Part shown: piece by piece, positions 1 through 5,935 of the stretch
How positions within the stretch are numbered: the stretch's first letter is position 1
Layout of the letters: each line of letters begins with the position of its first letter
DNA from: an uncultured Mollicutes bacterium
Lineage (GTDB): Bacteria > Bacillota_I > Bacilli_A > RF39 > UBA660
Assembly (NCBI GenBank): GCA_900557675.1
Contig: USTO01000040.1
Location: 1-5,935 of the forward strand
DNA length: 5,935 nt
Direction of reading: 5' to 3'
Position numbers and translations under genes: made by a program
Notes under the pieces: generated by a model
Databases searched by the model: none
The model's input: only the letters and a program-made list of their open reading frames with translations
What the model was told of the DNA's origin: nothing

Positions 1-359
1 AAAGAGGTACGTTAAGATATAATACGGATAGACCACTTTATTGGGAAGGAATGGTTGGACTTATGTATCCAAGTGATTATGGTTATGCGGCTGGAAACAG
101 TTGTGTAAGTGGTACTAAATTATATGATTATAACAAAGGATGTATGAATAAAGATTGGCTCTATATTTCAAATACTTATCAGTGGCTAATGTCGCCGACT
201 TCGCACCACTCCGACCTTGTGTTCGGCGTCGGCTCGTCCGGCTACGTCAGCTACGACACCTACCCTGTCCGTTCGGTGAGCCCAGTCTTTTTTCTGAACT
301 CTAGTGCAAGTATAAAGGGAGGAGATGGGACTTCTACTGCCCCTTATATCTTGTCCTAA
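1..359 (+). CDS. C-terminal part of a probable surface protein with a hypervariable-looking C-lectin-like tail (5' partial)
   Basis: The frame is open from the first full codon at position 3 to TAA at 357-359, giving 118 visible residues; the start lies upstream of the window, so the internal ATG at 51 is not the real start. Visible motifs are VGLMYPSDYGYA (residues 18-29), two cysteines (34 and 47) that could pair, a W-L-M-S-P block (61-65), then a Ser/Gly/Tyr/Val-rich stretch, and an ending with PVFFLNS (94-100), GGDGT (106-110) and APYIL. I know this layout from memory as a C-terminal domain of secreted or surface proteins in gut Firmicutes, where the equivalent of residues 92-95 usually reads V-R-P-V; here it is V-S-P-V. 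The codons for residues 64-95 are far more GC-rich than the rest, with 20 of 32 ending in C, as expected of a retroelement-diversified variable region. The N-terminal architecture and any secretion signal cannot be seen. Binding of a ligand at the cell surface is inference. Confidence 0.7.
   Translation, partial: RGTLRYNTDRPLYWEGMVGLMYPSDYGYAAGNSCVSGTKLYDYNKGCMNKDWLYISNTYQWLMSPTSHHSDLVFGVGSSGYVSYDTYPVRSVSPVFFLNSSASIKGGDGTSTAPYILS
189..290 (+). other. Candidate variable region (VR) of a diversity-generating retroelement target
   Basis: A GC-rich island of about 100 bases lies near the 3' end of the partial surface-protein gene. Hand counts of G+C per 100 bases are 29 (91-190), 63 (191-290) and 37 (291-390). 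Within it, 20 of 32 codons have the form NNC (cac, gac, ggc, tac, gtc, agc, ttc, tcc, acc). That is the pattern expected when AAC codons of a template repeat are randomised at adenines. Size, position at the end of the gene and the palindrome downstream all fit known retroelement targets. No reverse transcriptase or template repeat is in the window, so the assignment is inference. Confidence 0.45.
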
Positions 360-405: not shown

Positions 406-1020
406 ATGCTAAAAAATATCTTCCTTGATGTATTTAGTGATACGTGGCCTACAATCCTAATAGCCGTCGTAATAGCCGTATCACTAAGACTAGCATATCT
501 ACTAAAAGGACATAAAAAAATAATACTCTATAAAGAACTCCTAATGCTTATATTCATAATCTATGCTCTCTGTCTTTTCCATGTTGTAACTTATCAAGAT
601 GTGAATTTTGGTACCAATAACTTTATTCCCTTTAAAGAGATATTTCGCTACGATTTAGGTACCCCCAAGTTTATAAAAAACATAATAGGGAATATAATAA
701 TGTTTATTCCCTTCGGGTTCTTCGCATCCTATTTCCTCAAAAGTAAAAAGATAAGTATCCCCTTAATACTAACCATAATATTAACAACCACCATAGAAAC
801 AGTCCAGTACTATATAGGAAGAGTATTCGATATAGACGATATCATCCTAAATATAGTAGGAGGAATACTAGGTTATCTCCTCTTTATAACAATGGACTTT
901 CTTCAAAATAAAATACCAGGATTAAAAAATAATCACATCTTAAACTTGCTAATTATCATAATAATTGTTATAATAGTCATATACGGGTTCGATATAAATA
1001 TATTCGGACTATACGGATAG
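406..1020 (+). CDS. VanZ-family integral membrane protein
   Basis: This 204-residue protein is very hydrophobic, with about six likely membrane segments near residues 15-33, 44-62, 91-110, 116-132, 146-163 and 178-194. The VanZ-family signature is visible in order: NFIPF (72-76), G95-N96 with F100-x-P102-x-G104, E131-T-V-Q134, G138-R139 followed by D142, D144 and D145, then N149 and G152. VanZ itself gives low-level teicoplanin resistance in enterococcal van clusters. Most homologues, including those found singly in Firmicutes, have no known function, and no van genes are visible here, so resistance should not be assumed. The last segment (178-194) is an unusually pure Ile/Leu/Val run. An A/G-rich ribosome site (AAAGAAAGTG, 391-400) precedes the ATG. 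The gene ends 10 nt before ybeY, so they are probably cotranscribed. The family call is firm; the role is unknown. Confidence 0.88.
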   Translation: MLKNIFLDVFSDTWPTILIAVVIAVSLRLAYLLKGHKKIILYKELLMLIFIIYALCLFHVVTYQDVNFGTNNFIPFKEIFRYDLGTPKFIKNIIGNIIMFIPFGFFASYFLKSKKISIPLILTIILTTTIETVQYYIGRVFDIDDIILNIVGGILGYLLFITMDFLQNKIPGLKNNHILNLLIIIIIVIIVIYGFDINIFGLYG

Positions 1021-1025
1021 GGGGG
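1020..1025 (+). promoter_or_regulatory. G6-type ribosome binding site of ybeY
   Basis: A run of six G starts on the last base of the vanZ-like stop codon and ends 5 nt before the ybeY ATG. It can pair with the CCUCC anti-Shine-Dalgarno through a central G-U wobble. The same G6-N5-ATG arrangement precedes dnaG. Confidence 0.65.
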
Positions 1026-1030
1026 ATAAA

Positions 1031-1474
1031 ATGTACGATGTAATAAACAATTACGGAAAAGAAATACCAAACTATGAAGAAATAGAAAAATATGTAGAAT
1101 ACCTCGTAAAAGAACTAAACCTAGATAACTGTATGTTTAATATCATCTTTATAACCAATAAAGAAATCCATAAAATAAATAAAGAATATAGAAATGTAGA
1201 TAGACCAACTGATGTCATATCCTTTGCCCTTGAAGACAATAAAGATATCGAATACAAAGACTTTAGACTACTAGGAGATATCTATATATCCGTAGATAGA
1301 GCCATAGAACAAGCAAGAGATTATAACCACTCCCTAAAAAGAGAACTATGCTTCCTATCAACCCACGGTATCCTTCATCTTCTCGGATATGATCACCAAA
1401 CAAAAAAAGAAGAAGAAATAATGTTTACTAAACAAAAGGAGCTATTAGAAAAATATGGAATACAAAGGAACTAA
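1031..1474 (+). CDS. ybeY: Endoribonuclease YbeY, 16S rRNA maturation and ribosome quality control
   Basis: YbeY is a zinc-dependent single-strand endoribonuclease in the cytoplasm, needed for 3'-end maturation of 16S rRNA and for removal of defective ribosomes. The 147-residue length is usual for the family. The metal-binding signature H-G-x-L-H-L-L-G-Y-D-H is intact, with zinc ligands H112, H116 and H122. Other conserved blocks are N-x-x-Y-R-N-V-D-R-P-T-D-V-I-S-F (50-65), containing the family arginine, and L-G-D-I-Y-I (81-86). The ATG at 1031 follows a G6 ribosome site by 5 nt and gives a full-length N terminus. The gene lies 10 nt after the vanZ-like gene and its 3' end overlaps dgkA by 20 nt, so translation of the two is probably coupled. 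ybeY next to dgkA is a standard Firmicutes arrangement, often followed by cdd, era and recO, none of which is here. Confidence 0.96.
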   Translation: MYDVINNYGKEIPNYEEIEKYVEYLVKELNLDNCMFNIIFITNKEIHKINKEYRNVDRPTDVISFALEDNKDIEYKDFRLLGDIYISVDRAIEQARDYNHSLKRELCFLSTHGILHLLGYDHQTKKEEEIMFTKQKELLEKYGIQRN

Positions 1475-1835
1475 AAAAAGAACATTTAAAAACAGTGTTA
1501 AAGATTGCCTTGATGGCATAAACTTTGTTCTAAGTAATGAAAGAAATTTTGTAAGAGAAATAATAATGGGAATGATAGCCCTTACGCTATGCGTGTTTTT
1601 AGAAGTATCCCCTTATGAATACATAACCGTTCTTTTACTAATCTGTTTTGTCCTCATAATGGAACTAATAAACACTGCCTTAGAGAAAGTAGTAGACCTA
1701 TATACAACCCAGTATAACGAACTAGCCAAGATAATAAAGAATGTCTCCGCTGCCTCTGTCTTAATAATGTGTACATTCTCAGCAATAATAGGAATAATAA
1801 TCTTTTTACCAAAAATACTCAATATTATTAGATAA
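1455..1835 (+). CDS. dgkA: DgkA-family lipid kinase (probable undecaprenol kinase) with Asp-to-Asn substitution
   Basis: This is a 126-residue membrane kinase of the small prokaryotic diacylglycerol kinase family; in Gram-positives this protein usually phosphorylates undecaprenol, feeding the lipid carrier for cell-wall synthesis. Three membrane helices are expected, near residues 33-50, 54-76 and 97-118, after an amphipathic N terminus. The core motif E70-L-I-N73-T-A-L-E77-K-V-V-D81 is intact, as is E29 in the N-E-R-N-F block. The second active-site motif, normally A-K-D followed by a small-residue helix, reads I-K95-N96-V-S-A-A-S-V-L-I, so the usual Asp is Asn (codon aat). The E. coli equivalents are K94 and D95. 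AAGGAG (1436-1441) inside ybeY lies 13 nt before the ATG, a rather long spacing. The family is certain; full activity is not. Confidence 0.92.
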   Translation: MEYKGTKKRTFKNSVKDCLDGINFVLSNERNFVREIIMGMIALTLCVFLEVSPYEYITVLLLICFVLIMELINTALEKVVDLYTTQYNELAKIIKNVSAASVLIMCTFSAIIGIIIFLPKILNIIR

Positions 1836-1849
1836 CCTCTAATAATATT
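1821..1849 (+). terminator. Perfect 12-bp hairpin over the dgkA stop codon, possible terminator
   Basis: AATATTATTAGA (1821-1832) and TCTAATAATATT (1838-1849) are exact reverse complements around a 5-nt TAACC loop that begins with the dgkA stop codon. The stem is almost all A-U, and only two further T follow directly (1850-1851), so termination may be weak. It could instead protect the 3' end of the mRNA. It probably marks the end of the vanZ-like/ybeY/dgkA transcript. Confidence 0.5.
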
Positions 1850-1886
1850 TTATCATAAATAAAACTTGCTTTAATTAATATTTAGT

Positions 1887-1892
1887 AAGGAG
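1887..1892 (+). promoter_or_regulatory. Ribosome binding site that fixes a CTG start
   Basis: AAGGAG ends 5 nt before a CTG at 1898-1900. An in-frame TAA at 1886-1888 overlaps the site, so the frame cannot begin further upstream. No ATG, GTG or TTG occurs in that frame until the ATG at 2234, deep inside the coding region and lacking a comparable ribosome site. This makes CTG the most likely initiator. Confidence 0.75.
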
Positions 1893-1897
1893 AAAAT

Positions 1898-2482
1898 CTG
1901 AAAATAAAACTAAATAAAAACTATGTAAAACTAGTATTACCCTATATCCTAGTAACAACAACTATCTATTCATCAAGATACCTAATAACAGATAAACTCC
2001 CCCTTATAAGAAATAAAGAAGAAATAAATACCAAAGATGTACTAATATTAGGAGAAAAACCAAGTCAAGGTTCCTATTATGAAACCCTAGATAATAAACC
2101 AAACCAAGTACGCCTCTATACAAAATGTATCCCCCATAATAATAAATACAAACTACAAGGCTACCTCTATACATTTAATAAATATAATGAAGAAGAACTA
2201 CAGATAGCCCTAGAAAACCAAGATGAAGCCCTTATGAAAGAAATATTAGGACCACCCAAAGAAATAGAAAGAGAAGTATCAGAAGAAATAAAAACCCCCT
2301 ATATAGAAGGAATAATATTCAAAGATTCAAATACACCCACCCTAATAAAAGAAAGCCTTCCCGAAACCATTTTAAACAATACCTTTCTAATAGCCACATC
2401 CATAGTAGCATCAAAACTAATAAATGAAGTTGCCTATATAATAAAAGAAAGAAAAGAATACAAAAAAACTCCCAAAAATTAA
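1898..2482 (+). CDS. Unrecognised protein with N-terminal membrane anchor, CTG start
   Basis: The frame runs for 195 codons, including the stop, with no interruption from CTG at 1898 to TAA at 2480-2482. It encodes 194 residues that I do not recognise. The N terminus is short and basic (K-I-K-L-N-K-N), followed by a hydrophobic stretch near residues 9-25, suggesting a signal anchor. The middle (about 40-155) is hydrophilic and mixed charge, with T-K-D-V-L-I-L-G-E-K-P near 45-55, consistent with an extracytoplasmic domain. A moderately hydrophobic stretch near 158-182 could be a second membrane segment, before a Lys-rich tail. Codon use (ATA, AAA, CTA, CCC) matches the neighbours, supporting a native, expressed gene. 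ATG at 2234 would leave only 82 residues and discard the anchor. The gene lies between the dgkA hairpin and the queA promoter, so it may be its own unit or read through from dgkA. No function is proposed. Confidence 0.75.
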   Translation: MKIKLNKNYVKLVLPYILVTTTIYSSRYLITDKLPLIRNKEEINTKDVLILGEKPSQGSYYETLDNKPNQVRLYTKCIPHNNKYKLQGYLYTFNKYNEEELQIALENQDEALMKEILGPPKEIEREVSEEIKTPYIEGIIFKDSNTPTLIKESLPETILNNTFLIATSIVASKLINEVAYIIKERKEYKKTPKN

Positions 2483-2499
2483 CTTTACTAAACTTTTTG

Positions 2500-2528
2500 T
2501 TTGCATTTACAAAAATATATGCTATAAT
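2500..2528 (+). promoter_or_regulatory. Housekeeping (SigA-type) promoter with extended -10, for queA-dnaG-rpoD
   Basis: The -10 box TATAAT (2523-2528) is a perfect consensus match and is preceded by TGC, giving an extended -10 (TGnTATAAT). A weaker -35, TTTGCA (2500-2505, 4 of 6 to TTGACA), lies 17 nt upstream. Transcription would start near 2535, leaving a leader of about 18 nt before the queA ATG, too short for a riboswitch. The region between the preceding stop codon and the ATG is only 70 nt. Confidence 0.8.
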
Positions 2529-2552
2529 ATATACGTTTGAAAGAGGATTATT

Positions 2553-3578
2553 ATGAGAACTGAAGATTTTGATTACAATTTACCCCCCGAATTAATTGCC
2601 CAAACACCCCTAGAAAAAAGAGATAACTCAAAACTAATGGTGCTTGACAAAGAAACCGGAGAGGTAAAACACGAAACATTTAAAAACATTATAAACTATT
2701 TAGATAAAGGAGACGTCCTTGTCTTAAACGATACCAAAGTATTACCAGCTCGCCTTATAGGAACCAAAGAAGAAACCGGTGCCACTATTGAACTACTACT
2801 ATTAAATAACGTTCTCGACCATACTTGGAAGGCCCTAGTAAAACCAGGAAAAAGAGTAAAAAAAGGAACCATAGTTACCTTTGGTGAAGGAATGCTAAAA
2901 GCAAAATGCATCGAAGAATTAGAAGACGGTATAAAAAAATTCCAATTAATATACGAAGGAGTACTATTAGAAATATTAGATAAACTAGGGACAATGCCCC
3001 TTCCACCATATATTCACGAAAAACTCCAAGATAAAGACCGTTACCAAACCATATACGCCAAAAATACCGGAAGTGTCGCTGCTCCAACCGCTGGATTACA
3101 CTTTACCCAAGAATTACTAGACCAAATAAAAAATAAAGGCATAGAAATATGCTTTGTAACACTCCACGTTGGTATAGGCACATTTAGACCCGTATCCGTA
3201 GAAGACGTAACCAAACACAAAATGCACAGTGAGTATTATAATATGAATAAAGAAACAGCAAGTATCTTAAATAAAGCTAAGGAAGAAGGAAGAAGAATAA
3301 TATCCGTAGGCACCACGACAACTAGAGTACTAGAAACAATAATGACAAAATACAATACATTTAAAGAATGCTGTGGAGATACCGATATCTTCATATATCC
3401 AGGCTATAAATTCAAGGCCATAGATGCTTTAATTACCAATTTCCACTTACCAAAGTCAACCCTAATAATGCTTGTTAGTGCTTTTAGTTCCAAAGAAATA
3501 ATACTAAATGCCTATAATGAGGCTGTCAAAAACAATTACCGCTTTTTCTCTTTTGGAGACAGTATGTTCATAAAATAA
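2553..3578 (+). CDS. queA: S-adenosylmethionine:tRNA ribosyltransferase-isomerase QueA
   Basis: QueA transfers the ribosyl part of S-adenosylmethionine to preQ1 already placed at position 34 of GUN-anticodon tRNAs, making epoxyqueuosine, the penultimate step of queuosine synthesis in the cytoplasm. The 341-residue length is typical. Conserved blocks run the whole length: [12 protein letters not shown] (6-17), [16 protein letters not shown] (53-68), the P-L-P-P-Y-I block (149-154), [12 protein letters not shown] (174-185), [11 protein letters not shown] (204-214), T-T-T-R-V-L-E (255-261) and [10 protein letters not shown] (295-304). AAGAGG (2541-2546) lies 6 nt before the ATG. It is the first gene after the extended -10 promoter and ends 21 nt before dnaG, so it is probably cotranscribed with dnaG and rpoD. 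The partner gene tgt is not adjacent, unlike the ruvAB-queA-tgt order of many Firmicutes. Confidence 0.97.
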
Positions 3579-3588
3579 CTAAAAGAAA

Positions 3589-3594
3589 GGGGGG
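3589..3594 (+). promoter_or_regulatory. G6-type ribosome binding site of dnaG
   Basis: Six G (within AAAGGGGGG) end 5 nt before the dnaG ATG. Spacing and the following A and AAATG context match the ybeY site. It is an unusually G-rich element in an A-rich sequence. Confidence 0.7.
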
Positions 3595-3599
3595 ACCAA

Positions 3600-5312
3600 A
3601 TGATAACAAATGAAATAGTTAACGAAATAAGAGCCAAAACCGATATCGTAAGTATCATATCAGCTTATCTCCCCTTAACAAAAAAAGGCAAAAACTACTT
3701 TGGAGTATGCCCCTTTCACGATGACCATTCCCCCTCAATGAGTGTCTCCCCCGATAAACAAATATATACCTGTTTCTCGTGTGGAGCCTCAGGAAACGTT
3801 TTTAACTTCGTATCCAGTTATGAACACATAACATATTACGAAGCCGTAAAACTACTAGGAGAACGCTTAGGATACAATATAAACACATCCCCCAAAGAAA
3901 AAAAAGACGATATAAGTTATGAAATATATGATAAAGCGTGCAAATTTTATCAAAATAACATAAATACCACTCTTGGAAAAAATGCAATCGAATATTTACA
4001 TAGTAGACAAATAAACGATGAACTAATAAATAAGTTCAAAATAGGCCTATCAATGACCAAAGTATCCCTAACCGAATATCTTCTCGGAAGCGGTTATGAA
4101 CTAAACAAACTAATAAATATAGGCCTTACAAATGAACAAACCAAAGATATCTTTTTAAATAGAATAATGTTTCCCTTATTCGATTTAAAAGGAAATGTTG
4201 TGGCCTTCTCCGGAAGAATATACAATACCAAAGATGGAAGCAAATACGTAAATACCAAAGAAACAAATATCTTTAAAAAAGGAACAATGCTCTATAACTA
4301 CCATAATGCCCGTGAACACCTAAAAGTAAACGATACCATTATCGTAATGGAAGGCTTTATGGATGTCATAAGAGCGTACTCAATAGGAGTTGTAAGTTGT
4401 GTTGCAACTATGGGAACCGCCTTAACTAAACAAAATGCCCTTAACTTAAAGAAAATGGCTACCAATATTATCCTTTGTTTTGACGGTGATAAAGCCGGTG
4501 AAGAAGCAACCACTAAGGCCATTAAAATCTTTGAAGAAATAGATGTAGTACCCAAAGTAGTAAGATTAGAAGATAACTTAGATCCCGATGAATACATTCT
4601 AAGCCGTGGTAAAGAAAGCTTTCTAGCCAAAATAAATAATCCCATTAGCACATTAGAATTCAAAATGAATATCTATAAAGGAAACAAAAACTTTACCGAT
4701 GTTGAAGAAATATCCAAATACATAAACGAAGCCTTAAAAGAATTATCAAAATTAGATGATGAACTATTAAAAGAATTAACCATAAAAAAATTAGAAAAAG
4801 AATACGGGGTGGGATACGATGTATTAAAAAAGAAACTACAAAGTTTTGAAGTAATAAAACCAAAAGACTTGCCAAAAGCCGTAATAAAACCCAAAAGTTA
4901 TGGAAAATACGAAACCGCTCAACGAAATCTCTTATACTATATGATTAAAGAAAAAGAAGTCCTAGAATACGTTGAAGAAAAATTATCATACTTTCCCAAT
5001 GATAATTTACGCTTTTTAGCAAATGAAATATTTACATTTTATCATAAATATGGTATTCTAGTAGTCGCCGACTTTATAACAAGTTTAGTAAATGAAGAAG
5101 AACTGTATAAAATATTCCAAGAAATAATCAGTATGAATTTAAAAGAAAAATATACTAAAGAAGAAATCGACGACTATATATACCTTATAAACGAATACCC
5201 CAAGAAAAATAAAATAAACAAACTCGAAGAAGAACTACGAAAAGAACCAGACCCAATAAAAAAAGCTCAGATATTAAGTAAGATAATGGAAATAAAAGGA
5301 GTGAGAAAATGA
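3600..5312 (+). CDS. dnaG: DNA primase DnaG
   Basis: DnaG makes the RNA primers for Okazaki fragments at the replication fork, working with the replicative helicase. The 570-residue protein has the three expected parts. The N-terminal CHC2 zinc finger has ligands C37, H40, C58 and C61 ([10 protein letters not shown] and CFSCGASG). The catalytic core has N-R-I-M-F-P (187-192) with S-G-R (204-206), [14 protein letters not shown] (215-228), the Toprim glutamate E251 in E-G-F-M-D, and the metal-binding D295-G-D297 in F-D-G-D-K-A-G. The C-terminal region (about 440-570) is helical, charged and less conserved, as expected of the helicase-binding domain. A linker rich in Lys and Pro lies near 415-440. 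Translation starts after a G6 ribosome site. The stop TGA shares ATGA with the rpoD start and is followed at once by an in-frame TAG. No key residue is missing. Confidence 0.97.
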
Positions 5313-5935
5313 TAGAGGAAATAAAAAGCTTTGAGGATAGAAAAGAAGAACTAATAAAACAAGGAAAAGAAAAAGGCTATGTAACTTACGAAGAAATAGC
5401 CAAAGGATTAAAAGGCCTCGATTTAGATAGCGATTCCCTTGATGACTTATACAATAGTTTTATGGAAAACAATATCCAAGTAGCAACAGATGAAGATATG
5501 GTAGGGGAGACTGAAGACGAAGATGAAGGAGGAGACTTTGAAGACCTCTTAAAAGATAGTACTCTTGCCAAAGAACTAACCATAAATGATCCCGTTAGAA
5601 TGTATCTAAAAGAAATAGGTAAAATAAGTTTACTTTCCCTCGAAGAAGAAACCGCTTTATCAGAAAGAATAGTAGCCGGTGATGAAGAAGCCAAAAATAT
5701 CTTAGCCGAATCAAACCTCCGTTTAGTAGTATCAATAGCCAAAAGATACGTAGGACGCGGTATGCTATTTTTAGACCTAATTCAAGAAGGAAACATTGGC
5801 CTTATGAAAGCCGTTGAAAAATTTGATGCCGAAAAAGGATACAAATTCTCAACTTATGCCACTTGGTGGATTAGACAAGCCATAACCCGTGCTATCGCTG
5901 ACCAAGCCAGAACAATAAGAGTACCCGTACATATG
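5309..5935 (+). CDS. rpoD: Housekeeping RNA polymerase sigma factor RpoD/SigA (3' partial)
   Basis: This is the primary sigma-70 factor that directs RNA polymerase to -10/-35 promoters. The window holds the first 209 residues; the frame is open to the end, within region 3 at V-P-V-H-M. Region 1.1 occupies about 1-60 and is followed by a very acidic linker (61-80, many Asp/Glu). Region 1.2 is [11 protein letters not shown] (94-104). Region 2 follows without the long insertion seen in E. coli: [12 protein letters not shown] (136-147), [12 protein letters not shown] (154-165) and the -10-reading helix with [15 protein letters not shown] (178-192). The ATG overlaps the dnaG TGA (ATGA at 5309-5312) and AAGGAG (5296-5301) sits 7 nt upstream, so translation is probably coupled to dnaG. 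The sequence of regions 1.2 to 3 leaves no doubt that this is a primary sigma. Confidence 0.97.

Follow-up and report, generated by a model that had tools for sequence, protein, structure and literature searches.

The question raised by this locus is why a short stretch very rich in G and C should lie inside a single reading frame of AT-rich DNA. The DNA analysed is positions 1-5,935 of contig USTO01000040.1 from an uncultured Mollicutes bacterium of the RF39 lineage (5,935 nucleotides, hereafter the window), and the frame, at 3-359 of the forward strand, is the 3' end of a gene whose 5' part is beyond the window: 118 codons, closing with TAA. The answer proposed, to which we give a probability of roughly 93%, is that positions 192-284 are the variable region (VR) of a chromosomal target of a diversity-generating retroelement (DGR), whose reverse transcriptase (RT), Avd, MutS-like protein and template repeat (TR) lie elsewhere in the genome. 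The window itself carries the sequence signatures of such a region, and related genomes carry the machinery and TR/VR pairs that differ specifically at adenines.

The best-scoring GC segment comprises positions 191-287 (65% GC, against a window mean of 33%), and its score of 20.5 exceeds the maximum of 15.0 found in 300 first-order Markov shuffles. The richest 100-base stretch, 184-283, reaches 64% GC, and the maximum elsewhere (starts below 90 or above 420) is 48%. The island is wholly contained in the open frame, which confirms the GC jump inside one frame from which a sequence-only reading of this DNA had started; from the codon tally of that reading for 189-290, the 20 codons ending in C are recovered, and the total is 34 codons instead of 32. 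Expected codon usage was taken from the other genes of the window and from the target gene outside the VR. With the amino acids held fixed, codons 192-278 contain 56 G/C bases where 39.6 are expected, and 18 of them end in C where 8.9 are expected (p<0.001 in both cases). The codons of the fixed residues in the VR contain 1 A in 39 bases, against 7.7 expected for the same amino acids (p=1e-4), and each of the 18 codons at the variable columns has C or T as its third base (NNY).

The position of those columns was obtained from the alignment of the 69 homologous proteins that match the window fragment, one of them carrying a precomputed PF19789 assignment. Mean entropy is 2.16 bits inside codons 64-95 and 1.14 bits outside, and inside the VR fixed S, P, V, F and G alternate with variable positions of 9-18 residue types; on the forward strand of the window, fixed Ser, Val, Phe and Gly codons are likewise interleaved with hypervariable NNY codons. 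The first four homologues are 84-87% identical in the flanks and 41-56% in the VR. Lys, Glu, Gln, Met and Trp, the residues that NNY codons cannot encode, make up 45 of 1234 residues in the 18 variable columns versus 304 of 2265 in the other variable columns. To judge by the alignment, diversification may begin before the GC island, its possible upstream edge being the Tyr codon TAT at 177-179 of the same strand, a column with 13 residue types and 3.3 bits among homologues and thus hypervariable; the extension is insecure, since the same five residues occur in that column in 7 of 68 homologues.

A different explanation takes the island for GC-rich DNA of foreign origin, or else for an ordinary surface loop on which selection is relaxed or positive, as its sharp contrast with the surroundings would allow. 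This explanation can be almost entirely discounted, given the codon-by-codon alternation of fixed and variable positions, the variable ones being NNY, and the recurrence of a GC-raised C-terminal stretch in a relative, G005 (the genome of L005). There, 14 of the 18 target copies examined have such a stretch (90-base maximum 0.51-0.66) and 4 lack it, and the six loci sampled have 23-31% GC. A DGR, by comparison, would yield the island as a by-product, because its template must avoid A at the fixed sites and loses A at the mutated ones: adenine avoidance and adenine mutation would together explain it. The template RNA would hold A-free codons for fixed residues and AAC or AAT for variable ones. 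An error-prone RT acting with Avd would copy this RNA, turning template adenines into any base, and the cDNA would replace the VR by retrohoming, leaving NNC or NNT codons, which cover 15 amino acids and include no stop. In a C-type-lectin-like domain that probably belongs to a cell-surface protein, the varied residues would be carried by beta-hairpins; the domain might therefore bind many ligands, and repeated rewriting of the VR would provide the cell with many versions of one binding surface. We infer for the window organism the DGR machinery, its present activity, the surface location of the target and its ligand.

Related genomes were examined for the parts of such a system. The homologue profile matches 20 of 20 (E up to 1e-5) and, in a second set, 8 of 8 related genomes (E up to 1e-6); 14 of the 20 have RVT_1 matches and 6 of the 8 have matches to the RT of G005, not every RT match being demonstrated to be of DGR type. 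The G005 locus contains, in order, a 455-residue target, a MutS_I protein (28.7 bits, cut-off 20.6), the template repeat, a second MutS_I-like protein (17.3 bits, under the cut-off), a bAvd-like protein and the RT. The bAvd-like protein scores below the cut-offs of Pfam bAvd (36.7 bits, cut-off 40) and NCBIfam Avd (28.9 bits, cut-off 80) and matches the PHROG family 'Avd protein of DGR' at 5.8e-8. The best sequence match of the RT among solved structures is 8ub7, which we take to be the RT of the Bordetella phage DGR. The two MutS domain I-like proteins flanking the template repeat are at 5414-5845 and 6290-6682 of L129 (minus strand), and matches to both also flank the template region of another relative, G021 (L208).

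Of 386 family genomes, 8 contain a pattern made for the core of a template (S N N V F N V N), at 9 places in all, and none matches the reversed pattern. From these, seven template loci were newly fetched, and in five of them matches to RT, Avd and MutS-like protein adjoin the template, the Avd match standing beside the RT, as in the cassette of G005. Among 15 RT-matching loci, several of them cut by contig ends, 7 have both Avd and MutS-like matches, 1 has Avd only, 2 have MutS-like only and 5 have neither. Four drafts of 1.2-1.3 Mb (G005, G021, G070 and G287) have 2-3 RT matches each, some partial, and 10 to 29 target-profile matches each, not all of which carry a VR.

The differences between templates and VRs fall almost wholly on adenines. 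The 97-base template of G005 differs from its VR at 16 positions, all of them template adenines, and 11 extended TR/VR pairs, drawn from five genomes, have 157 mismatches in total, of which 151 coincide with an adenine of the template; the pairs came from a scan and an extension that tolerate A mismatches. For that reason each other base was put in the place of A in a repeat of the scan. There were 21 matches for A, 10 of them without an off-base mismatch, and 0, 5 and 2 for C, G and T, none free of off-base mismatches. Recombination or gene conversion among paralogues, without reverse transcription, might also produce variable copies, and paralogues are many (29 profile matches in the 1.3-Mb draft of G005); it is nevertheless very improbable, because a shuffling of existing copies predicts no adenine bias, which both the mismatch count and the base control display. 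Differences at template adenines, as expected under the reading first proposed from the window, are what the relatives exhibit, together with RT, Avd and TR. Among the 18 G005 copies examined, two agree with template 1 at every one of 38 non-A positions; two also correspond to the presumed template 2, one at 27 of 32 positions and one at 27 of 33. Three pairs (L223, L241, L243) join different contigs, C3 to C30 in G005 and C28 to C15 and C47 to C39 in G287. Targeting away from the contig of the cassette is therefore seen in draft genomes, a precedent for the suggestion that the template of the window gene might be distant.

Two further observations concern the target copies of these genomes. 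Five G005 loci (L225, L227, L228, L232, L239) form a second DUF6273-like group, of 'YWTMSP' type, in which the C-terminal stretches are variable and raised in GC; no template repeat was found for them in G005. Target matches at L222, L223 and L224 (G005) and L240 (G287) end about 200 bases or less from a contig end, and the window likewise begins inside a target copy; the copies may therefore break assemblies, and the target counts of drafts may be too low.

The VR of the window was compared directly with the nine templates. The closest is that of G285: when one codon gap is allowed, it agrees with the VR at 51 of 63 non-A and 9 of 30 A positions, the template belonging to another genome and the gap being placed at the best of all sites. 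None of 2000 trials in which window codons were shuffled under the same gap freedom attained the observed non-A match. For the remaining eight templates the agreement is 53-73% at non-A and 21-33% at A positions, levels reached by 0 to 3 of 2000 shuffles. At the strain level the comparison was made with the target of G005, a relative, in place of the window gene: outside the VR, identity between variants P0070 and P0072 is 99.5%, while inside it they are alike at 22 of 33 positions, and 10 of their 11 differences are at codons with a template adenine. The next ten variants listed, 88-94% identical outside the VR, are alike at 17-23 of 33 positions inside. Excess variation of the kind foreseen for this segment is seen in that relative, in one near-identical pair that differs mostly inside the VR.

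Several observations weigh against the DGR reading, in addition to the tolerance of the scan, the unproven type of some RT matches, the borrowed template with its favourable gap and the use of a relative's gene for the variants. No RT or Avd is found in the 5935 bases by open reading frames and Pfam, and no TR among the repeat families listed; the backbone pattern of the window VR, with up to 1 mismatch allowed, matches 0 of 386 family genomes. Pfam gives no match for the fragment, whose 118 residues cover no more of the domain than its C-terminal part. RT matches are missing from 6 of the 20 and 2 of the 8 relatives' drafts, and no RT is seen at two of the seven new template loci, both in G327; L275, one of the five cassettes that adjoin newly found templates, has its RT match in two frames. 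A further template/VR candidate of G021 (L208/L220) has 4 of 13 mismatches off adenine, as is one change between P0070 and P0072, V to M. The 6 of 20 relatives without an RT match also favour the view that the VR is a fossil, made by an ancestral DGR whose RT or template has since been lost and now fixed with its gene, as do low-GC target-like copies without a close template in G005, such as two L132 copies. Such a loss is unlikely, though it deserves more weight than the two explanations above: the window VR retains its A-avoidance and its NNY codons, features that one would expect an AT-rich genome to lose by drift, and related cassettes keep their parts together. The reading of the segment as a retroelement-diversified VR is retained, being supported by NNY hypervariability at 18 of 18 codons, A-avoidance and the DGRs of relatives.

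The protein of frame 3-359 aligns with the DUF6273 proteins of relatives and would be the C-terminal part of a protein with a DUF6273, C-type-lectin-like domain. The full-length G005 homologue matches DUF6273 (PF19789) at 26.8 bits (cut-off 23.5), and modelling assigns a C-type lectin fold to a domain homologous to that of the window, in agreement with the lectin-fold target anticipated from sequence. For the DUF6273 domain of one relative's target (L129 7237-8598, minus strand), the closest fold is the N-terminal domain of an Erysipelotrichia gut IgA peptidase. Frame and entropy profile place the VR near the 3' end of the gene, with the stop codon at 357-359. Between them, at 285-356 of the forward strand, lies the conserved end of the fold (VFFLNSSASIKGGDGTSTAPYILS), as delimited by the homologue alignment; P94, just before this part, and L98, G107, G109 and P114 are invariant.

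The genes that follow at 406-5935, on the same strand, are ordinary chromosomal neighbours by their Pfam matches: VanZ-like, YbeY, diacylglycerol kinase, an ORF of unknown function, QueA, DnaG and RpoD. These 5.6 kb behind the target gene are without RT or TR, and the families listed by a repeat scan of the window do not include a second copy of the VR. A 194-residue frame at 1898-2482 (forward strand) may be a gene with a CTG start at 1898 behind AAGGAG (1887-1892); its first listed ATG, GTG or TTG start is not before 2234, and it has no Pfam match. The DnaG of the window is at most 62% identical to its relatives in the species genomes searched, and at least one of the six best comes from an animal gut. 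By analogy with such relatives, the window organism would also inhabit the gut.

The codon texture of a VR alone can suffice to recognise a DGR target when RT and template are out of sight. If the relatives are a guide, a little-studied group of Bacilli diversifies chromosomal lectin-fold proteins in trans. A broader proposal, which we hold as tentative and somewhat short of an even chance, is that in these small-genome Bacilli lectin-fold surface proteins, dispersed over the whole genome, form a repertoire that is fed in trans by 2-3 DGR cassettes and carried on a TasA-like fibre or a membrane stalk, as adhesins diversified by reverse transcription and facing ligands of the host or of neighbours. 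Several relatives come from animal guts, and diversification in trans would make the question of the ligand testable.

Among the matches listed in the open-access literature, subscription papers lying outside it, there is no report of DGRs in this group (RF39, Mollicutes, TasA). What may be new here is the scale, that is, the number of RT loci and target-family copies per small draft genome. DUF6273 proteins are known as phage DGR targets, namely tentaclins (PMC10743442) and proteins of Faecalibacterium prophages (PMC11792537); these would share with the window protein the DUF6273 domain, the C-type-lectin-like fold and a VR within the domain, which in the Faecalibacterium prophage targets is at the domain C-terminus (PMC11792537). 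MSL is a known DGR accessory assigned to PF01624 (PMC10053308). As in the DGRs with Avd and MSL described in that report, the TR loci of relatives contain an RT, a bAvd-like and a MutS_I-like protein; unlike in them, RT and TR are not near the target of the window, and four relatives have several RT loci and many target copies per draft. Multiple VRs per DGR have been described for 271 of 948 DGRs (PMC6642488). In the relatives, similarly, one template is paired with the VRs of more than one gene, and some of these genes are on other contigs; the window and its relatives represent another bacterial group and another target family.
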